Source of the DNA: Pedosphaera parvula Ellin514
GTDB lineage: Bacteria > Verrucomicrobiota > Verrucomicrobiia > Limisphaerales > Pedosphaeraceae
Reading direction: 5' to 3'
NCBI RefSeq assembly: GCF_000172555.1
Contig: NZ_ABOX02000002.1
Coordinates: 248,001-312,000, forward strand
DNA length: 64,000 nt
Of this stretch, positions 4,102 through 63,610 are shown piece by piece (the first letter of the stretch is position 1; every line of letters starts with the position of its first letter). Position numbers and translations under genes: made by a program. Under the pieces are notes generated by a model. That model saw nothing but the letters and a program-made list of their open reading frames with translations, made no database searches and had not been told where the DNA came from.

Positions 4102-4251
4102 TCAGGACCTGTTGAAGGCTGCTTCCTCGATGCTTTGAACCTTTTGAGTCGGCGGTCCACGTGATTACAAAGCTGGTGTGAGGAAGCGGCCTGACTGAAA
4201 AGAGCAGGTGCACTTGGCTAACATGCCTTGTCCACTCGATTCTCTGGTTTA

Positions 4252-4507
4252 TACCGAATGCCAAAATTAATTTCCGGAATGGGGAAAAGAACCGGATGAA
4301 GAGAGGCGATAAGCCTGAAGAAAGTGGAGACTCAAAAAGCCATGGCTTTAGGGACGAGGAACACCGCTAGTCGTTGGGTGCAGGGTGCTTTTGATTTGAG
4401 GCGGCGTTGTCGGCCTGGTCGCTATCTAGAGATAGCGCCTGCGGCCTCCGCCTTGCCTCAAACCAAAATCCCTCCTGCCATTCGGAAATTACTTTCGGCA
4501 TTCGGTA
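4252..4507. mobile_element. MITE-like element with ~31-bp terminal inverted repeats and TA flanks
   Basis: The left end (4250-4282) reads TATACCGAATGCC, then A-rich sequence and TTTCCGGAATGG. The right end (4478-4509) is its reverse complement with a few mismatches. Outside the repeats both sides carry TA (4250-4251 and 4508-4509), which would be a TA target duplication as made by IS630/Tc1-mariner transposases. The interior holds no convincing gene. It contains an 8-bp stem, CGCTATCT/AGATAGCG (4420-4437), inside a longer GC-rich imperfect palindrome. The element sits in the 547-bp gap between the propeller gene and the NRPS gene; I see nothing else in that gap. Confidence 0.6.
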
Positions 4508-4648
4508 TATTGGGTGTTTACCCACTTCCGGATTTTCCAATTGAATACGTATCATAATTCCAGGATTAGTTTACCTAGGGAACTGGTTCAGCCTCATTTT
4601 CACTGACTACCGTCACACGCCTTTCGATGAAAGGCCAAGCAATCTCTT

Positions 4649-17428: not shown

Positions 17429-18214
17429 ATGAATAAAGTTCGCATTTTTTACGCCTCCTTAGCCTGCTTGATTTGCCTCGGATTGTGGAGTTGTTCATCA
17501 ATGGACCAAGGCTATGATCCCAGGTTCAATCCTGGCGTTGCTGCGAGCCAGTCCAACGGAACCGGAACGCAGCTCCCTGGAGGAAACCTGGCAGGCAGAA
17601 CGGAAAGGCCTTCTCAACCGCTTCCGGTAGATTCCCAACTTGCAGTCCGTAAGGCGACAGGATCAAAAAAGCAGGAGATTCCTGAAGAGGTTGCAGGAAA
17701 TGCACTCGTGAATGAAAGACCCAAGCTCTCTCCTGGTGATGTGGTTGAGCTTAAGGTCTATCAAGAGGATGAACTGAGCGCCCGCGCTCGTGTGGACAAC
17801 GACGGGATGGCAACCTTTCCGTTATTAAAGCCTCTCGTCGTGAAAGGCAAAACGTTGGAGGAGGCAAGAGTCATGATCAAGGATATCCTGGCAAAGGAGT
17901 ATTTGACCGACCCACATGTTTCTCTGACGGTGGTCGAGTTTGCCAAAAGGCGATTCTCAGTCATGGGAGAGGTCAAGGCTCCAGGTTTTTATAGCATACC
18001 GGAGGATACAAACTTGAACCTGCTTCAGGCTCTTTCCATGGCCGGAGGCTATACGGCTTTCAGTAAAGGCACCCGTGTCAGGATCAAAAGAATAATCGAT
18101 GGCAGGGAAAGTGTGATGCGGGTTGATGCGCAAGCCATGGCAAATGAAAAGAACGTCAAGGTAATCACCATTCAACCCGACGATGCCATAGAAGTTGGCT
18201 CAAGCATTTTTTGA
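17429..18214 (+). CDS. polysaccharide export lipoprotein (OPX; Wza/GumB-like)
   Basis: 261 residues. The lipoprotein signal ends in the lipobox L-W-S-C with the acylated Cys22. A low-complexity linker leads to a polysaccharide export (PES) domain at about 90-165 (LSPGDVVELKVYQEDELSARARVDNDG) and one SLBB domain at about 170-255 (RFSVMGEVKAPGFYSIP ... NLLQALSMAGGYT). OPX proteins form or gate the outer-membrane channel. Its stop lies 3 bp before the Wzc-like gene, the normal partner in the export complex. Length is short compared with Wza (~380), nearer GumB-type. Confidence 0.93.
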   Translation: MNKVRIFYASLACLICLGLWSCSSMDQGYDPRFNPGVAASQSNGTGTQLPGGNLAGRTERPSQPLPVDSQLAVRKATGSKKQEIPEEVAGNALVNERPKLSPGDVVELKVYQEDELSARARVDNDGMATFPLLKPLVVKGKTLEEARVMIKDILAKEYLTDPHVSLTVVEFAKRRFSVMGEVKAPGFYSIPEDTNLNLLQALSMAGGYTAFSKGTRVRIKRIIDGRESVMRVDAQAMANEKNVKVITIQPDDAIEVGSSIF

Positions 18215-34833: not shown

Positions 34834-35987
34834 AATCACACTGTTACTTCATAGGGACCACACTGGCGGACAATCCGGTGCCTCACCATTTTGTTGCTTT
34901 GGCAAACGAGTTGGTGCGGAGGGGAGAGCAGGTCGTAATTCTTGCGCCGCATCGCCGACTGGACCTGGAGGATCACACAGCCAATCCCGCCATCTACACC
35001 TGGCCTTCAGAGCGGCCAACCCGAATTGTTGACATGCTCTTTTTATTCCGGTTGATCCGGAAATATCGGCCGGCCTGCATGATTTCAAATTTTGGTGCCG
35101 TCAATATCATGATGTTAACTGGATGGCTTACGAGGGTGCCTGCGCGTATAGCATGGTATCACACGATTAGCGGTCAATTAGCGCAGGATAACGTGGCGCC
35201 ACAATGGAGACAGAAGTTACTTCGGCTGCGGAAGCGGGTGGTGTACCGTGCTGCCACTCACGTGGCGGCGAATTCAGTTGCCAGCGCGAAAGATGTTCAG
35301 GAGACGTATGGAGTTTTGGCCTCAAAATGCAGTGTTCTCTTTAACTCGCTGGCTGATCCAAAACTGACGACTCAACTTAAAGACCTGCATCCTGAAAAGG
35401 GAAGGTTTGTTTGTGTCGGGAGGCTATTCCCATCCAAGGGACAGGACGTGCTGATTCGGGCACTCGCAATTCTAAAAAGTAAGACCGCGTCATTTCATGT
35501 CGATTTTGTAGGGGATGGGCCTGCCCTGGTTGATTTACAACAATTGGCCCGCAGTCTGGGCGTCGAGAAACACTGCACATTTGTCGGCAGGCTGGCACAT
35601 CCCAAAGTTCTAAATCGGATGGCGACCGCGGTGGCTACCATTGTGCCAAGCAGAAATGAGGCTTTTGGCCTGGTTAACATCGAATCGATGGCCGTGGGAA
35701 CACCCATCATTGCTTCGAAAGTGGGAGGCATTGTTGAAATTGTAAGAGATGGCGTGGATGGGTTCCTGGTCTCCCCGGATGATCCGCAATCCCTGGCGGA
35801 TAAGCTTTATGCTCTGATGAGTAATCCCGACCTGCGTAGGGAAATGTCGTTGAATGCGAGAAAGCGTTTTCTCGCCACGTTTGAACAACATCATGTTATC
35901 CAACAACAGGCGGATTGGCTGGAAGCAATCATGGCAGGTGAACCCAAGCCGGCAATCGTGGATGTGAGCTATGGCACATTATCTTGA
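34830..35987 (+). CDS. glycosyltransferase family 4
   Basis: 385 residues from a GTG that overlaps the previous TGA by 4 bp (GTGA). N-terminal HFVALANELVRRGEQVVILAP; donor domain GRFVCVGRLFPSKGQDVLIRAL, FVGDGPALVDLQQLARSLG, CTFVGRLAHPKVL, VPSRNEAFGLVNIESMAVGTPIIASKVGGIVE. A strong GT4 match. Overlaps the next gene by 17 bp. Confidence 0.9.
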   Translation: MKSHCYFIGTTLADNPVPHHFVALANELVRRGEQVVILAPHRRLDLEDHTANPAIYTWPSERPTRIVDMLFLFRLIRKYRPACMISNFGAVNIMMLTGWLTRVPARIAWYHTISGQLAQDNVAPQWRQKLLRLRKRVVYRAATHVAANSVASAKDVQETYGVLASKCSVLFNSLADPKLTTQLKDLHPEKGRFVCVGRLFPSKGQDVLIRALAILKSKTASFHVDFVGDGPALVDLQQLARSLGVEKHCTFVGRLAHPKVLNRMATAVATIVPSRNEAFGLVNIESMAVGTPIIASKVGGIVEIVRDGVDGFLVSPDDPQSLADKLYALMSNPDLRREMSLNARKRFLATFEQHHVIQQQADWLEAIMAGEPKPAIVDVSYGTLS

Positions 35988-37422
35988 AAAGATTTATCCC
36001 TTTGTTCCCATTCCAATTCAAAACCTTGGAATATCGCTCTATGGCCTGGCTTGGAGGCACGAGCGATTAGGCGGGGATTTCGGTAAATATGTGACTGGGT
36101 TTCAAAAGCGCTCGGGCTGGACAGCAGAAAGAATGCAAGGATATGTCGCAGGGGAGTTGCAGCGGGTTCTCATCCGAGCTTATAAGGAGGTGCCCTATTA
36201 CAAGAAGGCATGGGCCTCCGTCGGCGTTACTCTTTACGACCTGGATCGGATGACAGTCGAGGGGTTGTCGAAGTTGCCGATCACGTCCAAATCAGATTTA
36301 AGAGCGGCTCCGGATGCATTTGTTGCCAGTTGTGCCCTGGCGGGAGGCAAGCTCCATCGCTATCACAGCAGCGGCAGTACAGGAACGCCGATCACTTCCA
36401 TATGCTCAGCGGAGGATCATAGGAGATTTATTGCGGCCAGGGAGGCACGGTCGTTTAACTGGGCTGGGTCAACGATTCATGCGTCTCGGGCCATGATCGG
36501 CGGCAGGATGGTTGTTCCCAGAGGAGTGGCCCAACCTCCGTTCCATCGGTATAATTGGGCTGAGCGCCAGGCTTATTTTTCAGCCTATCACATTGCACCC
36601 GCGCACGTGCCGGATTATGTGAAGGCGTTCAACACTCACCAGCCCCGGCTGCTGACCGGGTACGCGAATTCCTATTACCAGCTCGCCAGGATGATGAATG
36701 AGCAGGGAATCAAACTGAATTACGCACCAGATGCCCTGGTCTTGTGCAGTGAGAAACTGACGCCGGAAATGAAGGGAGTAATCAGGCAGGCTTTCCGGGC
36801 GCGTGCCTATGAAGAGTATGGCGCCGTTGAAAACTGTGTGCTGGCCACGGAATGCAAGCATGGCAGTTTGCATGTCAGTCCCGATTTTGGAGTGATGGAA
36901 ATTGTCGATGATGAAGGAAAACCCGTTCCTCCAGGGCAGGAAGGCAGAATTTTATGCACCTCGTTGCTGAATGAGACGCAGCCACTTATTCGATATGAGA
37001 TTGGAGATATCGGCGTCTGGGCCGAAGGGAACTGCCAATGTGGGCGGGATCAATTACCAATACTAAAAGAGTTGGTTGGACGATTGGAGGACGTGGTAGT
37101 AGGACCTGATGGTCGCGAAATGGTTCGATTCCATTGGATGTTTATCAATATGCCCAATGTTTTGGAGGGGCAGGTCGTTCAGGAGGATTTGGATCGATTT
37201 ACAGTCAAGGTGGTGGGGACAGGCAGTTTTAATGCAGAAGATGAGGCAATGATACGAGACGGTTTGTGGAAAGGTTGGGGGAGAGTAAATGTGGTCATCG
37301 AGAAGGTTAACGAGATACCCCGGACAGAACGGGGAAAAATCAGGGCGGTTATTTCCAAATTGAAGCCGGAACAACATAAACAAATCAAGATGAACGCTGA
37401 GCAGGCGGGTCTCGTTTCCTGA
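35971..37422 (+). CDS. PaaK/CapK-like AMP-forming adenylating enzyme
   Basis: 483 residues. Phenylacetate-CoA ligase/coenzyme F390 synthetase-type fold: VLIRAYKEVPYYKKAW, P-loop SSGSTGTPITS, EEYGAVENC, YEIGDIGVW, and the C-terminal VGRLEDVVVGPDGREMV. Two short cysteine motifs (CVLATEC; CQCG) may bind zinc or be structural. CapK-type members occur in capsule loci and are thought to activate a carboxylic acid, but their substrates are poorly known. Lying among transferases, it may add an acyl or aminoacyl group to the polymer (inference). Confidence 0.83.
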   Translation: MAHYLEKIYPFVPIPIQNLGISLYGLAWRHERLGGDFGKYVTGFQKRSGWTAERMQGYVAGELQRVLIRAYKEVPYYKKAWASVGVTLYDLDRMTVEGLSKLPITSKSDLRAAPDAFVASCALAGGKLHRYHSSGSTGTPITSICSAEDHRRFIAAREARSFNWAGSTIHASRAMIGGRMVVPRGVAQPPFHRYNWAERQAYFSAYHIAPAHVPDYVKAFNTHQPRLLTGYANSYYQLARMMNEQGIKLNYAPDALVLCSEKLTPEMKGVIRQAFRARAYEEYGAVENCVLATECKHGSLHVSPDFGVMEIVDDEGKPVPPGQEGRILCTSLLNETQPLIRYEIGDIGVWAEGNCQCGRDQLPILKELVGRLEDVVVGPDGREMVRFHWMFINMPNVLEGQVVQEDLDRFTVKVVGTGSFNAEDEAMIRDGLWKGWGRVNVVIEKVNEIPRTERGKIRAVISKLKPEQHKQIKMNAEQAGLVS

Positions 37423-38702: not shown

Positions 38703-41700
38703 TTAGATAGTGCGATAGAACTTGGACCGAAAGGACGATGCACTGTTATCAGTGAACGCAATCAGTCCGTCGTTGCCGGCACTTACATTGCCCAAGGTCA
38801 CCCAGGTCTGCAGATCGGAGGAGACCTGGAGATTGTAATTGGTTCCAGGATTGCCCTTCAAGACCACCTGGACTGAGCCGTCGGCCTGTTTTTGCAGGGG
38901 AACGCTGGCTGTGCGAACGGGAGCCGCCTGAACGGTGATCGTTGCAGTAGCACTGCTGCTATTACCCGAGCTGTCAGTCAGCGTGAAGGTAAACGTATCC
39001 GAGCCGGTAAAACCCGACTTGGGCGTATACAGGATGCCGCCGTCACAGGAACTCACGGTACCGCCTTGAGTCGTGTAGGGGCTGGCAATGCTGACCAGGA
39101 TGGTGTCCTTGAACAGATTGGTAGTTCCCTGGAACGAGGTGGAGGTGAATTGAGTCGTGGTGTTGCCATTGGCCGTCAGAGTGATGCTGTTCGCAGCGAC
39201 GTCTTTGGGCACGAATGTTGGATCGTTCGAGACGATAATACGATCAAGTGTCGCATTGGCTTCGCGGCCGCGGAACTTGATCGAGTGGCTACCCTGGGAG
39301 AGGGTGAAGGTTCTCGGGTTCAGCGCGAGTGGCTGTCCAGTGGTGCCACGTCCGTTCACGGCTGTCCATTGCCAGTTATTGGACCAGACACCTTCGGCAT
39401 CGTCATAGACATCTTCGGTGCCGCCATCCACGGAGACATAGAAGGAGTCGGCTGCGAACGAAGGTGAAAGCACCTTGCCCCAGATGTAGTAAGTGCCGGC
39501 GACAGGAACGTTCACGATGAACGTGACGCTGCCCTGTTCAGCAGTGGTGGTCGCAACGTAACGCTGAGAAGAATTCTGAGCGTTGGTGAATACCGTCATG
39601 GGGGCGACGAGGAGACCGGCTTCGGCTTCCAGAGGAATTGTGACCGTCTGGGCTGGAGCAGTGGGGGCAGTCACCGTGAGCGGGAACGTGGTGGTGCTGG
39701 AGGCGCTACCGTCGTTCACAGTAATGGTGATGTTGGCCGTGCCGGACTGGTTAGCAGCCGGAGTAACCGTGACCGTGCGATTGGAGCTGCTGCCGCCAAA
39801 GACGATGTTCGCATTAGGAACAAGCGTCGGATTGGAGGAAGTGCCCGCGAGGGTCAGGCTGGTGGCAGCCGTTTGCGCATCACTGACTGTGAAGGCAATC
39901 GCCGCGGTGGCCTTATTGGTTACGGTCGTCTGAGCGGTGATGGTAGAAATCACCGGAGGCGTATTGACGGGAGTAGCCGAAACAGTAACCGTGAAGGTTT
40001 TGCTGCTCGTAAGGCTGCCGTCGCTGACGGTGACCGTGATGTTGGCTGTGCCGGACTGGTTGGCAGCCGGAGTAACCGTGACCGTGCGATTGGAGCTGCT
40101 GCCGCCAAAGACGATGTTCGCATTAGGAACGAGCGTCGGATTGGAGGAAGTGCCCGCGAGGGTCAGGCTGGTGGCAGCCGTTTGCGCATCACTGACAGTG
40201 AAGGCGATCGCCGAAGAGGCAGTGCCCGCATTGAGGGTCTGGTTGGCGATGCTGGAGATCACCGGCGCCGAATTGGTGGCCGGAGGAGGTGTATTTGTTA
40301 CCGAGCTGGTGGGCAACAGAACATAGGCGCCGAAGTTCGGCCCGGCAGCAGGAGGAGCAGAGGCCCCGACTGGAGCGGCAACTGGGAGACCCATCATAGG
40401 CACCATGATCGAACCGCCGTTATAGGTTCCCTTGACTACGGGAGTGCCGTAGAAGTTCTGGGCGCTATGCACTTCGTAAGCCGTGCCGACAGGTAGCACC
40501 TGGCTGACATCGACAGCCACGGAGTTCAGCTTTTCCCAGTTGTAAACGAGGATGTTGGCGCGTCCCGGCTCGTACTTGTTAGGACGAACAGCGATAACGT
40601 TCTTCGTTGGCGTTGTGGTCAGGTAACTATTGTTTGGATAGCTGCTCTGCGTGAGGCCGATGGTGGCACTGAGGAAGGTATTACCCGCCAGAGTCATGTT
40701 AGCGTTGGCGTTGAACATGGTGCTGGTCTGGAAGTAATTGCCCTGGCAAATGGCATTCGCAGAACCGCCGTCATAGCCCAGAAAGAAATCTGAACTGGTT
40801 CCCTGAGTGTCATAAATGAAGTTGGTGCGGACGACCGGATTTTGAGCCTGTCCCTGATAAGGGCCGATCAACAGATTTTGTTGATGCGAATTGGCCAGTG
40901 CGCCGTTCAGGAAGAAGGCGGAACCTTCGATGGTGAAGTTGTCGGCGATAGGACTGGCGGATCCAGTAGCTTGCATGCCCAGGGCGTAGTTGTTAAAAAC
41001 GAGACTGTTTTCGACATACTTGACTGCCGGGGCTACGTTCTGTGCATAGATTCCATGACCGTGACCACGATCGGCACCCTGCCACCCATTGTAATAGGAG
41101 AGCATGCCATAGACCTCGGTATTTCCAGCGGCCGTATTCATGCCTAAGCCGCCACCGATATTATCATGAATAACCAGGTTGATCAGCTTGCAGTTCGGGG
41201 CTCGCAGGTCGACTCCGCTCACGCAGAAGTCGATTTGCTTGCCGTCATAGGGAGCCCACCAGGTTGTGGGGAAAGGGCCGGTTTGAGTGCTGGTGCGGGT
41301 CGGAATCCATCCACTGGCGAATTGTTGGGAGTCCATGACTTCGAATCCCCAATAATTGACATAGCCACCGGTGCTTTGCGTGAGGTTGCCGTCAATGGTC
41401 GCGCGTTCGCCAGGATATTGCCGGACCGTGATGGGGGCAGCGGATGTGCCGGACAAACTGCTGGTGAACTTGGTGGGACGGTTTAACTGACGATGAACAC
41501 CGCCGCGCAACCAGATGGTATCACCAGGTTTAACGCTGGAAGCTGGTTCAACGCAGTCTGGAGATCCCACGGGCTGCTGGCGCTTCCGGTGCCGGAGGCG
41601 GTGCCGTGGGGGAGACATAGAACTCGGTGGCATGCTCTTGCCAGCGAGGCTGCGAGACCAAGTGTGACCAGAACTGAGGCTTTCAGAGTAGAACCAAATT

Positions 41701-42175: not shown

Positions 42176-42179
42176 ATGA
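42120..42179 (+). CDS. possible 19-residue leader peptide coupled to the PKS-NRPS start
   Basis: ATG at 42120, 19 codons (MSPISKGLSTPMQMKGTTI), stop TGA at 42177-42179 overlapping the PKS ATG as ATGA. GGGAGGA lies at 42100-42106, farther upstream than ideal. The TGAGCCC/GGGCTCA hairpin lies within it. It could be a translational coupling or attenuation leader, or chance. Confidence 0.25.
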   Translation: MSPISKGLSTPMQMKGTTI

Positions 42180-45100
42180 TAGAAACAGTGACAGAAGGCA
42201 TCGCCATCATCGGGATGACCGGGCGGTTTCCTGGCGCTTCAAACATTGAGGAGTTTTGGCGAAATCTTGCTACTGGTGTGGAGTCCATTTCCACGTTCAG
42301 CGATGATGAACTGGCGGCTTCCGGATTGGATGTGGCGGCAATCAGGAAAACACCTGGTTATGTTGCTGCACGTGGTATTTTGAAGAATGCCGAATGGTTC
42401 GATGCGGCATTCTTTGGGATGAATTCGAAGGAGGCGGAGGTTACAGATCCACAGCAAAGACTCTTCCTGGAAGGAGCCTGGGAGGCATTGGAGCATGCCG
42501 GGTATGATCCTGAGAGGTACGCGGGTTCTGTTGGTGTGTATGCCGGCATGGGAAACAACACCTATTACATTAATAACCTGCACTTGCGTCCGGATGTCCT
42601 CGAGTTGGTTGGTCCGATGGCAACGATGATGGGCAACGAGAAGGATTATCTGACGACGCGCGTTGCGTATAAACTTAATTTAAAGGGCCCTGCAATTAAT
42701 GTTAATACCGCCTGTTCGACATCATTGGTGGCGGTGTGCCAGGCGTGCCAGAGTTTGCTGAACTATCAATGCGACATGGCGCTCGCAGGCGGCATTTCTG
42801 TCTCCTTTCCGCAGAAGCGCGGTTATTTTTATCAGGAAGGTGGGATCACATCCTCCGACGGACATTGTCGTGCGTTCGATGCTCAGGCACAAGGAACCGT
42901 TTCGAGCGACGGACTGGGAATAGTGGTGTTGAAACGTTTGGCTGAGGCTATCAAGCATGGGGATCAAATTTATGCCGTAATCAAAGGTGTGGGGCTGAAC
43001 AACGATGGTTCCTTCAAGGTGAGCTTCACTTCTCCAAGTGTTGGCGGTCAGGCTGAGACCATTGCCCTCGCCCAAGCCCAAGCCCGGTTTCGACCCCGAT
43101 ACCATCACCTATGTCGAAACGCATGGTACGGGCACACCATTAGGCGACCCGATTGAGATTGCAGGTTGGCCCAGGCATTCGGTGACGCAGGCGGAAAAAG
43201 TAAATTTTGTGCGATTGGTTCAGTTAAGTCCAATATTGGTCACTTGGATACCGCCGCCGGCGTGGCAGGACTGATCAAGGCAGTGTTGGCGCTGAAAAAT
43301 AAGCAGCTGCCACCCAGTCTGCATTACACGAAGCCCAATCCGAAAATTGATTTTGAGAACAGCCCGTTCTTTGTGAATACGCAATTGACCGACTGGAATC
43401 CGGGAGGGATTCCCCGTCGAGCAGGTGTCAGTTCATTCGGTCTGGGGGGCACCAATGCACATGTGGTCTTGGAAGAGCCGCCGACAATGCCTGCTTCAAG
43501 TGCATCCCGTGAGTGGCAATTGCTGCTGCTGTCAGCAAAAACGAAGTCGGCTTTGAACGATGGGACCGCCAACCTGACAGCCCATTTCAAAGCCAATCCT
43601 GGGCTCAAACTCGCGGACGTGGCCTACACCCTTCAGGTTGGAAGAGGGGTATTTGGCCATCGGCGAATGCTGGTATGCCGTAATGCTGCCGATGCAATCA
43701 AGACGCTGGAATCAGGGGACTCCAAGCGTGTGTTCACACAGCGCTCGGCTCTGAAAGATGTCCCCGTGTTTTTCCTGTTTCCAGGCCAGGGGGCACAATA
43801 TGTGAGCATGGGGGCAGACCTTTACCGCACTGAACCAGTTTTCAAGGAAGAAGTTGACCGTTGCAGGAAACTCCTGCAGCCACAACTGGAGCTGGATCTG
43901 CATCAGATTCTATTTCCCCAGCCGGAACAGGCTGATCTGGCGAAGGAACTTTTGGTGCAAACCCGCACCACCCAGCCCGCGCTGTTTGTGGTTGAATATG
44001 CCTTGGCCAGGCTTTGGATGTCATGGGGCATCAAACCGAAAGCAATGATCGGCCATAGCGTGGGTGAATATGTCGCCGCCTGTCTGGCAGGTGTATTCAC
44101 GTTGGAAGAAGGGCTGAGGTTGGTTGCCAGCCGCGCCCGGTTGGTGCAGGCGCAACCTGGCGGAGTGATGCTGGCGGTCAGGCTGTCTGAGGATGAATTG
44201 CAATCTCTGCAGGTCGATGACCTTTCCATTGGCGCAGTCAATGCCGCAAACCTGTGTGTCGTGTCAGGGCCAACCGGGCAGATTGAAAAGTTGGAAAAGG
44301 AACTGGACGCCCGGAACATCGGCAACCGCCGTCTATCGACATCGCATGCGTTCCATTCGACGATGATGGAGCCGGTGGTGTCACCCTTTTTGGAACTGTT
44401 AAAGAAGGTAACTTTCAAAGCCCCGACCATTCCGTACGTGTCGAATGTCACAGGCAAATGGATTACCCCTGCCGAGGCAACCGACCCGGTTTATTGGGCT
44501 CGACATGTGCGAAAGACTGTTCGATTTGCGGAAGGTGTTACAAAGTTATTGGAGGATTCACAAGCGATCCTGCTGGAGGTCGGACCGGGCAAGACGTTGA
44601 CAACTTTGGTGCTTCAGCATGCGGCAAGGTCTCCTGACCAGATGGTGATATCCTCCATGATGCCCGGGAAAGACGAGGGGCAGGAAATGCTGAATGCGCT
44701 TGGAAAACTTTGGCTCGCAGGCGCCACCGTGGATTGGCCGGGCTTCTATCAGCAGGAGAGCCGCTGTCGAGTTGCGCTCCCGACCTATGCGTTTGAACGG
44801 AGCCGGTTCTGGATTGAACCTCCTGCCGTGAACACAAGGCAATTGGCTGCCCTGGCAAATCCAATGAGAGAAGTAGCGACTGTTTACGAAGTGGCAAGGA
44901 GCGCCCTCACAATCGAAGAAAGTCGGAATGGGATCACACGGAGCAGTCGGTTGGAGCATGCACTCAAGGGGCTTTTTGAGGAAATTTCGGGAATACAGAT
45001 TTGCCATTCATCACGTTCGGAAGCATTTGTGGAGCTGGGTTTTTATTCCCTCTTACTCGCACAGGCAAGCCAGTTCATTCAGAAGCGATTTGGCATCGAG

Positions 45101-48100
45101 GTCACATTCCGACAGCTACAGGAGGAGTTATCCACCTTAAAGGATTTAGCTCAATATCTCGATGTCCGGTTGCCCGCAGAAACACCAGCTGTTGGTCAAG
45201 GAAAAGTTGAAGAGGTCGAGATTCCGCCGGCATCCACTGGATCAGAAAGCCAAACGAGTTCAGAGCCTACGATCTTTCCCTTGACTGAAGGGCAGACCGA
45301 GTTGTGGCTGGCCGCGCAGTTGGGGGCGGATGCTTCCCGCGCATTCAACCAAAACTTCCTCCTGCATCTTAGGGGCCAATTGAGGCAGGAATTCCTGATG
45401 CAGGCTCTTCAGGAAGTTGTAAATCGGCACGATGCCTTGCGGACCACCTTTCTTCCCGACGGGAAGGAGCAACAAATTGCAGCCCATCTAGAGATCGAGG
45501 TTCCATTTGTGGATTTGTCATCCATTGCTGAGCCAACCCGCGACCAAAAAATCAGAGAACTACTCAAGGAAGAGGATGAATTCACCTTCGATCTGGCGAA
45601 GGGACCGCTGTTTCGCGCAAAAATAATCAAGGTTTCCACCGAATACCATATGCTCGTGATTTCATCCCACCATATTGTAATGGATGGATGGTCAATGGGA
45701 GTTGTCTTTAATGAGGTTAGTAGAATCTATTCGGCAAAACTCGAAGGAAAGGCGGGGTTGCTCGCGCCAGCCATGCAATTTAAGGAATATGTGGAATGGC
45801 AACAGGGGACAGAGGCCTGCAAGAAAAGTGCGGAAGCAGAGGCGTATTGGCTGCGGCAATATGAAACTGTGCCAACCAACCTGGAATTGCCTGCGGATAA
45901 CGCGCGTCCCTTGAATAAGACCTATAAAGCTGGCACCGAGTGCCTGGTGATTAGTTCCGCTCTTTATAAGACTTTGAAAGAAGCAACAGTGGAGCAAAGG
46001 TGCACGCTTTTTACTTATCTGCTCGCGAGTTTCAATGCCTGGCTTTATCGGTTGAGCGGGCAGGAGGATATTGCCATTGGCGTTCCCACTGCCGGGCAAA
46101 TTGCCGCCGCGAACCATGGCCATTCAGGAAACAGAATGCTCCTGGGTCATTGTGTAAACCTCCTTCCATTTCGCAGCCGTTGTAATGGGGCAATCGCATT
46201 CAAAGATTACCTGAAGGAGGTCAAGCGAGTGGTTCTGGAAGGCTATGAGCACCAGCACCTCACTTATGGCAGACTGGTGAACAAGCTGAATCTGCCGCGA
46301 GATACGAGTCGCCTGCCATTAATTTCCATGACTTTCAATGTTGTGCAGGTCACGAATGGCGTCCATTTCAGTGGATTGGAATCAGAAATTGGGCTGTTAA
46401 CCAAAAGTTGCAACTTCTTCGATATCACATTCGACTTGATGGATTCGGAAAAGGATCTCCTGATCGAATGCCGTTTTAACCTGGATTTGTTTGGCCCGGG
46501 CACAATCAAAAAGTGGTTGAAGCATTGGAAGACCATGTTGGAAGCCGCGGCAGCGAATCCGGCACAGCAGATCTGCGCCATTCCACTTTTAGATGAGGCT
46601 GAGCGCAAACAAATCCTCTGTGATTGGAATGATACGGATAAGGATTATCCAAAATCCAAGTGCTTGCACCATTTGATCGAGGCACAGGTGGAACGGACGC
46701 CTAAAGCGGTGGCCGTGCAGTTTGAGAGCAGCCAACTGACCTACGATGAACTGAACAAAAAAGCGAATCGTTTAGCCCATCACCTGAAAAGGTTGGGAGT
46801 GGGGCCTGAGACGCTGGTGGGATTATGTGTTGATCGTTCGTTGGAAATGGTGGTCGGTTTGCTCGCCATTTTAAAGGCGGGAGGTGCTTACGTTCCTCTG
46901 GATCCACATTATCCAAAGGAACGTCTGGCTTTTATTCTGCACGATTGCCGGACGCCCGTGCTTTTGACCCAACAACGTTTGCTGGAAAGCCTGCCCAAGC
47001 TGATTCCAGAATCCGAGACGAGTTCCAATGCGAAAACGCCGACCGTTATTTGTCTTGATTCCGATTTATTGACCGTTGAGCAAGGAGATGAGAGGAATCC
47101 CAAGACGACTGTCAGCGCTGAGAATGCAATCTACGTGATTTTCACATCCGGCTCAACTGGACAGCCGAAGGGGGTGCTGATTTCGCATCGGTCGTTCATA
47201 AACTTTCTAATCGGCATGCAGCAGGAACCGGGGCTTGAAAAGGACGACGTGATTCTGGCAGTAACCACGCTTTCCTTTGATCCCGCAGGATTGGAATTGT
47301 GGCTGCCTCTCGTGGTTGGAGCAAAAGTGGTGATTGCCAAATCTGATGTAGCCATGGACGCGAAGCGGCTCTCAAAGCAACTCGCTGCCTGTGGAGCCAC
47401 GTTATTGCAGGCGACCCCTGCCACCTGGCAACTCCTGCTTGATTCCGGTTGGACAGGCAGTCCGAATCTCAAGATTCTCTGTGGCGGGGAGGCATGGTCG
47501 AACGAGATGGCGGGGCAGCTTCTGCCCAGGTGCAGGTCATTGTGGAACATGTATGGCCCAACCGAAACGACCGTTTGGTCGGCAGCCACCAGAGTGGAAA
47601 AAGCTGAAGTGCCGCTGATCGGCAAATGCATTGCGAACATGCAGTACCATGTTTTGGATTCCCAATTGCAGCCAGTGCCAATTGGTGTGCCCGGAGAGTT
47701 GCATATAGGCGGGGATGGACTGGCCAGAGGATATTTGAACCGGGAAAAGCTTACCGGCGAAAGGTTCATTCCCAATCCATTCAAGGCCGATCCAAAATCG
47801 CGTTTATATAAAAGCGGCGATCTGGTCAGATATCGTGAGGATGGAAGAATAGAGTTCCTGGGACGTATGGACAACCAGGTGAAAATCCGTGGCCACAGGA
47901 TTGAACTTGGTGAGATCGAAAGCACGTTGCGCAAGCATGCCGCTGTGCGCAATGTCGTGGTTGCGGCACAGGAGTTGGCACCGGGTGATAAACGCCTGGT
48001 AGCCTATTTGGTGCTGGAGGAGTCAGAGACCGTCACCACAGCGGCACTGCGACAGTTCGTAAAGGGGCAACTACCGGAGTATATGATTCCTTCGGCTTTC

Positions 48101-49432
48101 ATGGTGCTGGAGAAATTTCCCTTAACTCCGAATGGCAAGGTGGACCGGAAAGCGCTGCCACTGCCGGATTCCCGGCGCACGAGCAAGAGCTCAGTGGCTC
48201 CGCGTGACCCCCTCGAATTGCAACTCGCGCAGATTTGGGAAAAGATTTTTAACATGCGCGATAGCATCGCGATGATTCTTTCCTGGCGGCACTCGCTGCT
48301 CGCGATACGTCTTTTGCTCAAATCGAGAAATTTACCGCAGAACCTGCCATTGGTCACGCTGTTCCAGGCGCCAACGATCGAACAATTGGCCGGTGTGCTA
48401 CGACAGCAAGGCTGGGAATCTCCATGGTTATCATTGGTGCCGATTAAAGCGGATGGCGCCAAACCACCGTTTTACTGCGTGCATGGGGTGGGGGGAAATA
48501 TTTTGGAATACATGGATTTGGCCAAATACATGGATGCTGATCAGCCGTTTTACGGTTTACAAGCGATCGGTCTGAATGGCAAGCGACCATGGCACAAAAG
48601 CGTGGAGGAAATGGCCAGCCATTATGTTGAGGAAATCAAGGCCTTTCAACCGCGCGGACCCTATTATATTGGCGGATCATCGTTCGGCGGCCTCGTGGCG
48701 TTCGAGATGGCCCAACAACTCAAAGCGAAAGGAGAGGAAGTTGCGTTGCTGGCCTTTTTCGATACTCGTGCGCCAGGGTATCCGAGGTATTTAGCGAACG
48801 TATCGGCCTGGAAACTCAAGTTGAACCAGCTGGCGCATCGAGTGGCACTGCATTGGGGAAATTTCAGGGCTGCGCGAGGTGTTGAGAAAATAACATATAT
48901 TAAGACCAAGGCGCAGAGATGGTACCGCAGCCAGATTTGGAGTTTCAATCGGATGCGGCGGCGTTGGAAGGAAAAGTTCGAGAGCATTTTTTGGCCCAAG
49001 GCGATTAAAGAAGCGCAGAAAAAAGGACTGCAGGCGGCCTGTGTGTATGTGCCTTCCAAATATGACGGGAGCGCGACCTTGTTTCGTGCAACCGGACAGA
49101 TCAAGGGGATTTACCCGGATCCAACACTAGGCTGGAGTGAACTGATCGGGAAGGGTTTGGAGATCTACGACACCCCAGGCCACCATGGAGCAATTGTAAG
49201 AGAACCGCGAGCGCGGGTGCTGGCTGAGCAGCTCAAAGAGAGTCTGCGCAAAACCCAGGCGGCAGTGATGCTCCGGCGGGAGCATGTGAATTCAAAAAAG
49301 CCGCATGCCAATAGTAACAGGAACGGTCAAACCCAGGAGCCTGCCGTCCCGGAAGAAAAAGAAGTCGGGCAGATTCTGATTACACCTTCAGGAACAACAA
49401 ACGCGGAAGAACTTGCTTCCTGCCAGGCGTGA
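42176..49432 (+). CDS. hybrid PKS-NRPS, KS-AT-ACP-C-A-PCP-TE (two damaged spots)
   Basis: About 2419 codons when read through. KS: C180 in NTACSTS, His of HGTGT at 43122, His356 in SNIGH. AT: GHSVGEY with S628, HAFH at 724-727 (malonyl type). ACP: serine 958 in LGFYSLL. C: HHIVMDG at 1165-1171. A: FTSGSTG at about 1656-1662, MYGPTE; code about D-P-L-Q-L-G-M-V-W, glycine-like. PCP: serine 2040 with damaged flanks. TE: GSSFG with S2169 and a late GHHG. No KR, DH, ER or MT. KS sequence resembles clades that accept peptidyl chains from an NRPS. In the deposited frame a stop at 43154 splits the gene: one extra C at 43083-43085 and one missing T at 43166-43167 put 27 codons out of frame. Expected role: extend an aminoacyl chain with malonate, add a (probably glycine) residue, and release it. 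Confidence 0.9.
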
Positions 49433-50067: not shown

Positions 50068-53000
50068 ATGCGATTAAAATCGTTTCGTCTTGGTGCCTGG
50101 TTGCCCGTCCTGCTCATGCCTCCCGGCTGAGTCCCGCTTCCCCTTTGAGCGCTGAGGAAGTGAAGCCGATTCGTGCGTGTTGGTAATTGGAGGATGTTGC
50201 CACGACTATCCCCAGCAGAAGAGGATTTTAACGGAAGGGATTTCTGCCCGGGCCAATGTTGAGTGGACAATTGTGCATGAGGGTGATGGATCCACTTCGC
50301 ACAGGATGAGTATTTACGAGGACCCGGATTGGGCGAAGGGATACGATGTGGTGGTGCATGACGAATGCTTCTCGGATGTAAAAGACAAGGATTTTGTGGA
50401 AGGGATTCTCGAGCCACACCGGGAGGGTTTGCCTGCAGTAAACCTGCATTGTGCGATGCATTGTTACCGGGTGAGTTTCGATGACTTCAAGGACTGGTTT
50501 GAATTTACCGGCCTGGACAGCCGGGGGCATGGAGCGCAGTTGCCGATTGCACTTACCTTTGTTGATCCTGAGCACTCGATAACCAAGGGGATGCAAAATT
50601 GGACGACCATTCATGAGGAGCTTTATAACAATGTTCAAATTTGGAAAACAGCGAAGCCGCTGATTTATGGCCAGCAGGGAAATGACAAGAACATGGTCGC
50701 GTGGGTGAATGATTATCATGGAACCCGGGTATTCAGCACCACGCTTGGCCATAACAACGAAACGGTTGGTGATTCCCGGTATCTGGATCTGGTTACGCGC
50801 GGTCTGTTGTGGTCGGTGAATAAATTGAATGCTGATTATATGAAGCCGGCTAAACGTGTGCTTGCGCCGGTGAAGCCTGGAAAGAAGGTAATTGTTCCCG
50901 AGAATTTGGCGCTGAATAAACCGGCAACAGCTTCAGCCTCACAAGGCGGTCATGATCCCGTTCATGCCGTGGATGGGGAAACGGATACGCGGTGGTGTGC
51001 GCCCGACAATGGAAATGGCTATTGGTGGCAGGTGGATTTGCAAAAGGCGGAAGAGATTACCGGGTGCAAAATTGCGTGGGAAAGAGGGGGGGTGGCCTAT
51101 CAATACAAAGTAGAAGGTTCGGCTGATGAAAAGACCTGGCAGACTTTTGTGGAAGTAAATGGCAACGAAGGACGGCCTGAAAACGATACACACAAGTTTG
51201 AAGCCAGTAATGTGCGATACGTCCGAATCACAGTCACAAAGGCACCAGAAGGTGCCTGGGCCAGCTTTTGGGAGTTCGAAGTTTTCGGAAAGAAGATGGT
51301 GGAAAAGGCCGCGAATCAGAACGATTCACGCCTGGCTGGAGTCAAAGTGCCAGCTGGCTTCAACAAGACTATTTTTGCGGGGCCGCCGGATATCAGCTAT
51401 CCAACCTGCATTGCCGCAACTCCTTCAGGTGAGGTCTTTGTCGGAGTCGATCAGAACGGGTCGCTGGATGTTCAGCCGAATCGGGGTTGGGTGGTTCGTT
51501 GCCTGGATACAGATGGAGACGGGATAGCGGACAAGTTTAACATATTCGCGAAGATGGACAGTCCGCGCGGAATTGTTTTTAACCACAATACATTATACGT
51601 GATGCATCCGCCCGTGTTAGAGGCGTTTTATGATGATAACGGGGATGGTGTGGCGGACCGCTCGGAAGTGCTGGTGAGCGGATTGGGAAACAGCCTTAAA
51701 TTTCGTGGCGCGGATCATACCTGCAACGGGGTAAGGATGGGAATCGATGGATGGCTTTACGTTGCGCTGGGCGATTACGGGGCCCTCAAAGCAGTGGGCA
51801 AGGATGGAACAGAGTTGCAAGTTCATGGCGGAGGCATTGTGCGGGTGCGCCCGGATGGCTCCGAGCTTGAGTTGGTATCCGAGGGAACACGCAACATATA
51901 TGATGTCGCGATTGATCCATTGATGAATATTTTTACGTGCGACAATACCAATGACGGTGACGATTGGAACGTGCGGTTGAGTCACATGGTTCAGACAGCG
52001 AACTATGGATATCCCAGACTTTTTAGGAATTTTTCAGATGAGATCATGCCAACCATGGTGGATTATGGCGGCGGGTCGCCGACGGGCGCTTTATTTGTGG
52101 ATGAACCAGGCTTGATGTCTGGTTTGCTCGCCTGTCAGTGGGGGTGGAACAGCGTGACCCATCATCCGCTGCAAGAGAGCGGAGCTACCTATAAGGCTGA
52201 GCGAGAGAATTTTGTTGAATTGCCGAGGCCGACTGGAATTGATGCCGACGGAGAGGGCAACTTGTATGTAGCCAGTTGGAAGGGCGCAACATTTACCTAC
52301 AACGGGCCGGATGTTGGCTTCATCTTGCGGGTCAATCGGAACGATTACAAGCCGACTCCATTTCCAGATTTGAAAAAGGCAAATGAGATCCAACTCGTCC
52401 AGTATTTAGCTTCGCCCAGTGCGGCTTGGAGATTCCATATTCAACAAGAGATTCTTCGTCGAGGCAGGAGCAAGGTGGTTTCACAGGAACTGGAAAAACT
52501 GGCTGAGTCAAAGGAAAGTCTGGCTGTGCGTGTGGCAGCGATCTATACCCTTAAGCAACTGCTGGGGGTCGATGCGCAAGCAGCATTGGTAAAAATATCG
52601 AAGGATCAACAGGTCCGTGAATATGCGTTGCGCGCGATGGCAGATCGAAAGAAAGAAGCCGCCAAGATTCCGACGAAGACTTTCACAGCGTCACTGAATG
52701 ACCAAAACCCCCGCGTGCGCCTGCAGGCAATTATTGCGCTCAACCAACTTGGAAGAACCGAGGCCGCGGATGCAATCCTGCCTTTGACCATGGCTTCAGA
52801 TCCTGCCATTGCGCATGTGGCATATCGCGCACTCGCCGCGCTCAAGGCAACAGACACCTGTCTCAAAGCTCTTGATCAAACGAATGCCCTTTTGATTCCT
52901 GGCGCGATGCGGGCCTTGCGAAACATGCATGACGAGAAGACTGTGGATGGATTGATCCAACGACTCGCCCAAACCGAAGGCACGGTGCATCAAGCTGTCC

Positions 53001-54322
53001 TGACTGCATTATGCCGGCTCTATTATCGTGAATCGGATTGGGATGGATCGTGGTGGGGGACACGCCCAGACACCAGCGGTCCTTACTTCAAATGGAGCAC
53101 CTGGGAACAGAGTGATAAAATCGGCAAGGCGCTGCGGAATGTGGTCGCGCAAGCCGATGAACCAACATTGCAATTCCTGCTCGCGCAGTTTAAAGCTCAC
53201 AAGATTGATTTTCCAGACCTTGCGCCGATTGTAATCAAAGCTGCAACTCAAGAGCCAAAGCTTCGTTCCGCCGTCGTTCAGTTTTTGACCCAAAGCAGCT
53301 CCTATAGCCGGGAAACGATTTCATTCTTGGAAACAGTCGCTTCGAATTCCAAGGAGGAGTCCAGCGTGCGCCTTGATGCGTTCAAAGGATTGGAACGGGC
53401 TTCGGACAAATCGGAAATTATGGATGCGACGGTGCGTGTACTCAGCGTTGCTGGAGGGGAGGAGAATAAAGAGTTTTCCAAGGGTTTGCGCGAGGCTTTT
53501 ATTCGTGACGGGCGTCATGCAAAGAACGTCGGATACTTTGAAACACTGGCGGCCACACAAAATGAAGGTCAGGTTGAACTGGCTTACGCGGTCCTGCTTC
53601 AAATTGCGGGAAACACCAAGGCACCGAAGCAGGCAAAAACTTCGGCACAACGAGCGATCGATGAGGCTTGGAACTCAGCAAATTTGGCCAGGCTTTTGCG
53701 GGCCGTTGGCGATAGTGGTTCCATAATTTATACCGAGCAAGCCAAGGCACGTGTCAATGATGCCAACCAGGAAGTTGCGGCTGCGGCCAGATACGCTTGT
53801 GAAAAACTAAGTGCGAACCCGGTTGTCAGGCAGAATTCTGACACTAAGGATACCATCGCTAAATTGTCTTATGAAGAAGTTGTGCAGAGAGTTGTTAAAG
53901 CCAAAGGAGAAGCCAAGGTTGGCGCCCATCTTTTCCAGACTGTAGGTTGTGTTAAATGTCATACCACTTCAAAAAGTGAACCCTTAAAAGGACCATTCCT
54001 GGGAGACATCGCCACTCGCTACAGCAAAACCGAAATCATCGAATCCATTCTTCGGCCCAACGCGCAAATCGCGCAGGGTTTTGTCACGACAACCGTGCAA
54101 ACGAAGGATGAGGCGGAATACGATGGCTTTATTGTTCGTGAATCTGGAGATGAACTTGAGATTCGCAATATAGTTGGTGCCACCGTGATTGCGAAGAAGG
54201 ACATTACCAAACGGGGGACCCGGACCATTTCGATCATGCCGGAAGGCCTTTTTGATCAGTTGACACCCGAGGACCTGGCGTCGCTTCTGGCCTATCTGCA
54301 ATCATTCACCAAGAAATCATAA
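50068..54322 (+). CDS. PVC-type membrane-bound dehydrogenase: ThuA, discoidin, propeller, HEAT, haem (5' end frameshifted)
   Basis: The open frame from the GTG at 50177 gives 1381 residues: ThuA-like (about 1-215; VLVIGGCCHDYPQQK), F5/8 type C discoidin (about 235-370; NLALNKPATASASQGG), PVC dehydrogenase propeller (about 390-760; FNKTIFAGPPDISYPTCIA), HEAT repeats (about 780-1230), and the haem domain with C-V-K-C-H at 1258-1262 and a C-terminal LTPEDLASLLAYLQSF. The real start is probably ATG 50068: MRLKSFRLGAWLPVLL is a signal peptide in a second frame, and HASRLSPASPLSAEEVKPIR is in a third. Two missing bases (near 50115 and 50175) would join all parts. Periplasmic oxidoreductase, substrate unknown. 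Confidence 0.85.
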
Positions 54323-60012: not shown

Positions 60013-62622
60013 TTATTGCGCTTTGGAGAGCCGCTTGTCTGCTTCCATTACGCTGACGATCCCAATATCAATGTTTTGGCCACCGGTGGTTTGATGACAA
60101 TGGGCCGCGAGGGTGATTTTCGCGCCCGGTTTGAGCAGTGACAGGGCTTGCGGGATGATTTCGAAAGGTTCGTAACCAGTGTTGAACCCCTGTTCCCTGG
60201 CAGCCAAGACCCCATTCACATAAATCTCCACGTCCTCGTCGTGATACACGAGGAATTGGAGATTCCCGCTGCTTTCCGTTGGCATGGTGAACTCGCGACG
60301 GATCCAGATGTCATCACTGTTCCACTGGGTGCGGATTACAGCTCCTGGTGGATTGGTTCCAAACCCGGCGGCGCCTTCCTTCCAATTCGTCGTATTAAAA
60401 TCGGGCTCAGTCCAACCCGTGGGAGGCTTTTGAGTGGTATAGCGCCATAGGACAGGGTTTTTCTCAGATGTCGAAACGACTTCCTTGATTTGAGGCGGTT
60501 CCGGCAGTGCGGCCCAGTTGCCCACTTTCAAGTGATCACGGCTGGCCCATTTTTTCCACATGCCTTTATCCGAAAGCATCTTGATGAAAAGGCCACCCAC
60601 AACTGGACGGGCATGCATGCCGTCACTCTTGATATCATCGGTGATGTAGGAATCGGCGAGGGGGCTTCTTGCACTCGTCTGATTTAAGTAATCATAGATC
60701 GGAGAGATGATAGTTTCAAAGTCTTCCTGGTTATCAGCGAGAGTGGCGCTCCAAACTGACCAATCCGTCTTGGTGAGGTGGGTGCGGGAATCAAGCGGCA
60801 CGCCGTACCGTTGCATCACCTTCTTGTAATAAGAGACTTCCTTCTGCGCCACTTCCCGTGGGAAGACATTCAGACCAAGGATTCGGTCCCAGGCGAGATT
60901 ATATTTTTGACTCCAGGTATTGGGCTTGTCAAAGGCCAGGCGGTAATGATCGCCTTCGGCGGCGGCCTGCATCCAATGGGCTGCATCCGTTTTGGCGAGC
61001 TTGGCGTACTTTTCTGCGTTGACCAGGTCACCGCGCATCCGGCAGAGGTCACCGTAAGCGGCAAGGCCCAGAATCGCTTTGACCGAGAGGTTGGCATTGT
61101 GAGCCAGGTGCCCCATGAAATCATCCGTGCAAAGCTGATTTTCCGGATCCAGACCGTATTGTTCCAGATATTGTGCCCATTGGGTAAGTTGTGGCCACCA
61201 GGGAGTGACAAAGTCCGCGTTGCCTTCCGATTGAGCAATGGCATCGCAGAGCAGGAGCATATTGCCGCTTTCCTCAACCGGCATGCCTTCGCCTCCGTCA
61301 TCGGTGCCGCGGGCGTTTGGATAGGTGCCAAGGTCATGCGGAGCATTTGGAAACTTCCAGTGCCATGAGGCTGCGTAGCTAAGAATGGGAACGACGGAGG
61401 CCTTGGCCAATGTGGGGCTCAGCAGAATCAGCACAGGGTCCATGGGATAAAAGACATCCACCGTGGCAATGTCGCCGTTGCTGGTGTTTTCCTTGGTGAA
61501 GAAGAGCGGCTGCTTGTTGGCATCGGCAGCCAGACCACAAGCGGCGAGGCATTGACGATAAGCGAGGGCACAAATCTGAGCGTAGCGGCTACCTCCCACT
61601 TTGGTCAGGTCAGCAGTGAGTTGTTCGTCAAATTCTGCGCAACGCTTCGACAGCTTGGGATAATCCTTTGCGGCCACCTGAAAGAGACTTGCAGGAGTGG
61701 CACCATTACGGCGCCAATAGGGTTGCAACTTTTGACCAAAATACTTGATGGAATAAACTTCATCATAGGCGATCATCACCTGGCGCATGATGGGTTTGGC
61801 CGCTACTTCACCGAGATTGAAAACAAAAGCCAGAGCTGGTTGCTGATCGTGGACGGCGCGCGGCATCTTCTTTATATCTTCATCGGGCAAATCTCCATTG
61901 CGTGCAAACGAGCGGGCCATGGTTTCGCCGGAGCCCATGGAGCTTTTGGACTGCGCCGCGGGGGCTGCTACATAAGCGTAACCCCAGTTAATCCGATGAT
62001 CGTCACCGGAGGAGCGGAGAACAGGTTGTTCCTCGGTGCCAACTTTTAACAATGTAAGATCGCCGGCTTGTTCGCGAGCCCAGGTTACCTGTTCCTGTTC
62101 TTGATTGACGACCAATTGCGAACTGGTGCTGTCATATATTTGAACCTTATGTTTGGAGCCATCGACTGAGTGCACGCTCCAGGTGAGATAAGTTACGGGG
62201 CGGGCCAATACCTCCAGATCATCGGGCAGAGCAGGGGTCATGAAAGTGAGTTGGACATGCACGCCGGTGTCTTCAAATTCATAAATGCTGCGCGTTGGGG
62301 TTACTTGCACGCTGACTTGAGGGAAGGCGGGAATGTCTTTCGGGTTGTTCCCCATCAAGCGAAAAGCCTTTCCATCCACTCGAATGAGGCTGCTGAGCGA
62401 GTGCTCATGGTGGGTCCAATGACGAGTGGCATCATCGGTCAGATGATCGGCCTCAGACCAGATGCTGAAATAAGGATCACTCGTGACCAACGGGACTGCC
62501 GGAGGGCGAAAAGCTGGGGCGGCATGAGATGTTTGAACTGACAGTGAGGAGAGACACAGAGCGACAGCAGCCAGAATAGAGGCGCAGTTGTTGGTTGCCG
62601 GAAATGATTTGGATTTCGTCAT
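60013..62622 (-). CDS. secreted GtaA-like glutaminase-family protein (DUF4964/DUF5127/DUF4965 type)
   Basis: 869 residues with a signal peptide (ILAAVALCLSSLSVQTSHAA). Family start PAVPLVTSDPYFSIWSEADHLTDD, RHWTHHEHSLSSLIRVDG, mid-part TVDVFYPMDPVLILLSPTL, WHWKFPNAPHDLGTYPNA, and NLSVKAILGLAAYGDLC are hallmarks of the fungal glutaminase A-like group. The last ~150 residues (WRYTTQKPPTGWTEPDFNTTNW ... IWIRREFTMP) are an added galactose-binding-like domain common in PVC hydrolases. True substrate in bacteria is unclear. Confidence 0.83.
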   Translation of the reverse strand: MTKSKSFPATNNCASILAAVALCLSSLSVQTSHAAPAFRPPAVPLVTSDPYFSIWSEADHLTDDATRHWTHHEHSLSSLIRVDGKAFRLMGNNPKDIPAFPQVSVQVTPTRSIYEFEDTGVHVQLTFMTPALPDDLEVLARPVTYLTWSVHSVDGSKHKVQIYDSTSSQLVVNQEQEQVTWAREQAGDLTLLKVGTEEQPVLRSSGDDHRINWGYAYVAAPAAQSKSSMGSGETMARSFARNGDLPDEDIKKMPRAVHDQQPALAFVFNLGEVAAKPIMRQVMIAYDEVYSIKYFGQKLQPYWRRNGATPASLFQVAAKDYPKLSKRCAEFDEQLTADLTKVGGSRYAQICALAYRQCLAACGLAADANKQPLFFTKENTSNGDIATVDVFYPMDPVLILLSPTLAKASVVPILSYAASWHWKFPNAPHDLGTYPNARGTDDGGEGMPVEESGNMLLLCDAIAQSEGNADFVTPWWPQLTQWAQYLEQYGLDPENQLCTDDFMGHLAHNANLSVKAILGLAAYGDLCRMRGDLVNAEKYAKLAKTDAAHWMQAAAEGDHYRLAFDKPNTWSQKYNLAWDRILGLNVFPREVAQKEVSYYKKVMQRYGVPLDSRTHLTKTDWSVWSATLADNQEDFETIISPIYDYLNQTSARSPLADSYITDDIKSDGMHARPVVGGLFIKMLSDKGMWKKWASRDHLKVGNWAALPEPPQIKEVVSTSEKNPVLWRYTTQKPPTGWTEPDFNTTNWKEGAAGFGTNPPGAVIRTQWNSDDIWIRREFTMPTESSGNLQFLVYHDEDVEIYVNGVLAAREQGFNTGYEPFEIIPQALSLLKPGAKITLAAHCHQTTGGQNIDIGIVSVMEADKRLSKAQ

Positions 62623-62746: not shown

Positions 62747-63610
62747 CTATTGGTCCAATATTGCTTCTTGAGTTGGATTAACTGTCCAATATGGCGTTGA
62801 GATGTCGTAATGAGGCTGGTTATCATTGTTCCAGCGACGGCGCCAAAGATCATTGTAGGGATTAATAACATCCTTCCGCAAAGGTCGGTCGGCATGCGAA
62901 TCGCAAAACAGCATGTCGGTGCGTCGGCTATGCCGATTGGAGGGCCATTGGTCCGGTTGAGTCGGATCCATATTTCCCTCCCAGGTATGCGTGGTTTTCT
63001 GCCCTTGGCTGTCGCCGAGCATGATCATTTCGGTTGGAGCCACGACCATGGTGTCCGTCACGATACCTTTATATTGGGTGCCGTCGACATCTCCTCCCAG
63101 ACCCAGTTGCGGGCTATGGCCCAAATCAAGACCCCAATCATTGTAAGCCAAGGAGAAACGAGAATTGGATGTAACCGCCCAAGGATTTGTGCCAAGGCCC
63201 AGGGTCTTGTTGACATTGGTATCCCAGGCGCTGTCGGGACTTGCTGCCGGGCATTGAAACACTGCACGGTTATTCCCCATCTCAGTCAGGAGCCGTTCCG
63301 GCCACACATAATAAAAGCTAGGCGTCGTGGAAACGCATCCTGGATAGGCTTTGTTGTCATTTATATATAGTGCCAGGCCAATACCGATTTGGCGCAAATT
63401 GTTGATGCAGGCAGTTTGTTTTGCCTTCGCTTTAGCTCTGGCCAAGGCAGGAAGCAACAGTCCTGCAAGGATGGCAATAATGGCAATGACCACCAGGAGT
63501 TCAATCAGGGTAAATGCTGAGCGACCGCGGCATCTTTGGGTTCTTCCGATTCGACGACCTGCGCGATCTAATGGCCTCTTAATGCCGATTTGGCAGCTTT
63601 TAGTCTTCAT
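62747..63610 (-). CDS. type II pseudopilin-like prepilin-cleaved protein (verrucomicrobial type)
   Basis: 287 residues. Prepilin peptidase site and helix near residue 32: [24 protein letters not shown]. Then [21 protein letters not shown], and the C-terminal [32 protein letters not shown] and [12 protein letters not shown] motifs that mark the large verrucomicrobial/planctomycete family. These proteins have secretion-like N-termini but no known function. It is 124 bp upstream of, and co-oriented with, the GtaA-like gene. Confidence 0.88.

Follow-up and report, generated by a model that had tools for sequence, protein, structure and literature searches.

Does the hybrid synthetase gene of Pedosphaera parvula Ellin514 really carry a broken ketosynthase (KS), or is it the deposited sequence that is broken? 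The window, namely the whole 64,000-nucleotide stretch that was analysed, covers bases 248001-312000 of contig C2 in a 7.41-Mb genome of 102 contigs. A first-pass annotation of this window had noticed a stop codon inside the KS, and proposed that two compensating single-base indels around the HGTGT histidine explain everything, so that the synthetase would be intact if both were errors. Our analysis indicates that the KS indels are very probably errors in the deposited draft, and that they lie in some 13 kb of low-quality sequence (window 37.2-50.2 kb), where the damage goes beyond the KS.

Reading frames of the interrupted ketosynthase

The features of the KS region and of the gene to which it belongs are as follows, in window coordinates.

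42176-43156, + strand: first ORF of the split synthetase (326 aa), N-terminal part of the KS with the active-site Cys (TACSTS); Pfam PF00109, E 1.3e-72
43083-43085, + strand: position of the extra base, moving the frame from mod3 2 to 0; frame-aware alignments to L096, L097 and L006, and 83 of 88 KS relatives
43086-43166, + strand: shifted segment, which contains the HGTGT histidine of the KS; the deposited frame has a TGA at 43154
43166-43168, + strand: position of the missing base, moving the frame from mod3 0 to 2; frame-aware alignments to relatives
43166-49432, + strand: second ORF (2088 aa), rest of the KS (NIGHLD), AT, ACP, C, A, damaged PCP and TE; Pfam
48254-48345, + strand: second cluster of indels, within the PCP that lies between A and TE, the frames running 2-1-2-1-2; read in three frames and aligned to L103/L007, L006, L027 and L010

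The first ORF ends in ...AQAQARFRPRYHHLCRNAWYGHTIRRPD*, with the stop TGA at 43154-43156. From 43086 the peptide GFDPDTITYVETHGTGTPLGDPIEIAG is read in frame mod3=0, and frame mod3=2, which is that of the first ORF, is picked up again at 43166-43169 (LAQAFGDAGGK...). The KS Cys in TACSTS is present in the first ORF (NTACSTSLVAV) and the second His, in NIGHLD, in the second ORF (SVKSNIGHLDTAAG), while the first His (HGTGT) is absent from the deposited frame and found one frame over. An alternative start TTG at 43166 lies within a conserved part of the KS.

Plain tblastn did not show the KS pair, probably since hits contained in longer ones drop out, and frame changes were therefore scored by our own frameshift-aware alignment. 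In this alignment HGT[GAS]T stands in the straight frame in all 88 KS relatives, and 83 of the 88 call for a +1 at 43075-43095 together with a -1 at 43155-43185. The same-genus homologue (73% identical), the contig C21 paralogue and L006 place them every time at 43085/43086 and at about 43167, respectively. When the first ORF is used as the query, nearly all good hits lose the match at residue 303-308 of 326, immediately ahead of the shift. Run over the whole contig, a codon-model HMM with frameshift states found the KS pair (a 158-bp segment) and missed the PCP cluster; because its other hits look like gene junctions, homology was relied on instead.

Both single-base indels of the first-pass annotation are thus placed here by the 83 relatives, and its coordinates and frames for the stop at 43154 and the restored reading at 43086-43166 are right. 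As for the exact bases, the extra one does fall at 43083-43085, but the missing one is not uniquely a T in TT, since any base at the Gly-Leu codon junction fits and the relative differs there. The argument that both sites are homopolymers holds insofar as tracts of 3 and 2 bases exist; at such length, however, it tells little, and the second site is not uniquely TT.

How old the break could be is addressed by the codons of the shifted segment. Counted on the alignment, the same-genus homologue matches the shifted peptide in 24 of 27 residues, which is far beyond chance. In the restored frame, differences at codon positions 1/2/3 number 1/2/14 against this homologue (L096; 14 of 17 at the third position) and 4/1/19 against the C21 paralogue of the same genome, and the segment still shows purifying selection. 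Because the differences concentrate at third codon positions, such constraint rules out old decay, though it does not speak against a very recent mutation. A pseudogene is recognized by relaxed constraint in its coding frame, which the shifted segment does not show.

The synthetase gene and its second indel cluster

For the gene at 42176-49432, Pfam gives PF00109, PF02801, PF00698, PF00550, PF00668, PF00501 and PF00975 (KS, AT, ACP, C, A, TE). Every domain in the order KS-AT-ACP-C-A-PCP-TE is recovered in this way except the PCP, which is damaged by the second cluster yet recognizable against relatives; from its domain content the gene would be a one-module hybrid PKS-NRPS, KS-AT-ACP-C-A-(PCP)-TE. 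It adjoins a polysaccharide gene cluster whose order is common to contig C200 of the same-genus genome G001. Beside this shared cluster, G001 carries C-A-PCP-TE only (C200:38533-42588), and the window gene adds a KS-AT-ACP that resembles the gene on contig C146 of G001, which suggests a domain fusion or exchange.

At 48254-48345 a PP-binding domain was not found by Pfam. Relative to the nearest relative, the PCP cluster is net about 12 bases short, with one- and two-base gaps scattered within about 100 bp; these amount to about ten small deletions, denser than the KS pair, and such a pattern is not how genes decay. Because the PCP of the same gene carries this second cluster, explaining the KS indels alone leaves the gene unrestored. 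The statements that two indels explain everything, and that the synthetase is intact if they are errors, were therefore too strong.

Indels across the region and their cause

Proteins of relatives were aligned, with frameshifts allowed, to 56.7 kb of the window. Well-supported indels occur in 37.2-50.2 kb only, where at least five clusters lie within about 13 kb, spread over four adjacent genes that are mostly unrelated and occupy both strands. Besides the two clusters in the synthetase, they are:

37257-37285, + strand: compensating -1/+1 pair, 28 bp apart, in the AMP-binding-like gene 35971-37422; frame-aware alignment to a G001:C200 protein
41540-41637, - strand: three indels (+1, -1, -1) at the N-terminus of gene 38703-41633; frame-aware alignment to G001:C81 and C186 proteins
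50118-50180, + strand: two -1 shifts, not compensated, in the part encoding the signal peptide of a ThuA/F5_F8/HEAT/cytochrome c gene (body 50177-54322); alignment to a G001:C225 protein

The indels are thus clustered by region across unrelated genes, as draft errors would be. The probability that all eleven events fall by chance in 13 kb of the 56.7 kb is near 1e-7, a rough figure since the region was picked post hoc and the events are non-independent. As a control, about 81 kb of other NRPS/PKS loci in the same genome gave one credible indel site, on C12, in keeping with stop codons seen there. Not counted were a shift pair on C18 in these control loci, which is an antisense-frame artefact, and shifts called at 17554/17612, 12040 and 20457, which have poor flanks or lie at gene edges or in an antisense frame; the shift called at 62538 is doubtful.

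Some other features were recorded along the way. The C12 site, at about 17120 (L243, about 10623), is a frameshift at an NRPS PCP-TE boundary. Within the window, an intergenic element of 260 bp occupies 4250-4509 and has long inverted repeats at its ends (TATACCGAATGCC...GGCATTCGGTATA). At least 30 copies of it occur across the genome at 84-94% identity, and the same-genus genome has partial ones. Its folding is strong (-107.6 kcal/mol, z -6.1), an Rfam match was not found for it, and it looks like a MITE-type repeat. At 62747-63610 on the - strand lies a gene for a prepilin-like protein; the DNA encoding the N-terminus of this protein has matches at many sites in each of the relatives searched.

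Being local and taking no account of strand or of what the genes do, the fault points to the assembly, rather than to selection or to the decay of one pathway. Since the KS break is one of several indel clusters packed into 13 kb, it almost certainly arose as an error of sequencing or assembly, and we infer the same cause for the indels in general; the error branch of the first-pass annotation is accordingly backed both by the relatives and by the regional clustering. Paralogous repeat collapse was rejected as the cause: for the KS the own-genome copies reach at most 70% identity, for the PCP there are none, and a near-identical copy of either site was not found elsewhere in the genome. Two observations sit less easily with error. 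With tracts of just 2-3 bases, a classic homopolymer slip is not obvious. Moreover, all three clusters that lie within genes leave the frame unchanged overall (a chance of roughly 1 in 27), a mild surprise if errors are random, while the two gene-start clusters are uncompensated. A base-caller that keeps peak spacing could, speculatively, yield compensating pairs. The KS pair does compensate, but with two other clusters in the stretch uncompensated this is probably in part coincidence.

Other readings take the deposited bases as real. That the gene is a recent pseudogene, in which the KS lost its catalytic His through two indels and a stop, and the PCP was struck by others, is how the deposited sequence reads, and two domains of one gene are affected; it is nevertheless quite unlikely, as codon constraint is still seen in the shifted segment, neighbouring and mostly unrelated genes are damaged on both strands with the damage ending at about 50 kb, about ten small scattered deletions in 100 bp are atypical of decay, and the remainder of the 2088-aa ORF is open. 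Taken more broadly, the proposition that the indels are real, with the KS split and the HGTGT His lost, either in a very young pseudogene or in an NRPS acting without KS chemistry, deserves only slight credence. Programmed recoding, in which a ribosomal shift of +1 before GFDP and another of -1 after EIAG give a regulated full-length synthetase, would fit flanking ORFs that share one frame and an intervening peptide intact one frame over. It would however need two opposite shifts 80 nt apart and several more in the PCP; a slippery heptamer was not seen at either site when the sequence was read by eye, and conservation of the shift site was not found in the relatives, where the frame runs straight in 88 of 88 and the shifts occur in none. 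It is therefore scarcely credible. The same must be said of a genuinely split KS whose halves, with 326 aa and 2088 aa, each function as a protein of their own: the TTG at 43166 could offer a start, but it lies inside a conserved part of the KS, the HGTGT His is in neither half, and none of the 88 relatives is split here.

A low-quality draft stretch explains the indels better than a pseudogene or programmed frameshifting, and the break at 43083-43168 holds no new biology. The real gene is most likely an ordinary single-module KS-AT-ACP-C-A-PCP-TE hybrid PKS-NRPS with the KS Cys-His-His triad intact, and we infer that the encoded enzyme would be functional. A false "dead KS" is thereby removed, and about 13 kb of the contig (window 37.2-50.2 kb) should be resequenced before it serves for gene calls, pseudogene counts or substrate predictions. 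If the indels were true, they would mean a very recent synthetase loss in a verrucomicrobial biosynthetic locus.

Comparison with known systems

For the P. parvula Ellin514 draft just 0.5% pseudogene ORFs have been reported (PMC9600693). In draft genomes PKS/NRPS ORFs are over-represented among partial ORFs (PMC3322347, BMC Genomics 2012); that artefact comes from assembly fragmentation, whereas here small indels lie inside one contig. With the ketosynthases of cis-AT modular PKSs (PF00109/PF02801) the window gene shares both KS halves, the TACSTS Cys and the NIGHLD His, with HGTGT in the adjacent frame; it differs in that its deposited frame is without HGTGT and the domain is interrupted by TGA. 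The KS-AT gene on C146 of the same-genus genome G001 is 73% identical in protein over 622 aa, but has no indels at these positions, and its contig ends inside the gene. The C-A-PCP-TE synthetase on C200 of G001 follows the same polysaccharide cluster and is about 53% identical overall, the TE half being visibly closer; unlike the window gene, it is not preceded by a KS-AT-ACP and has an undamaged PCP.
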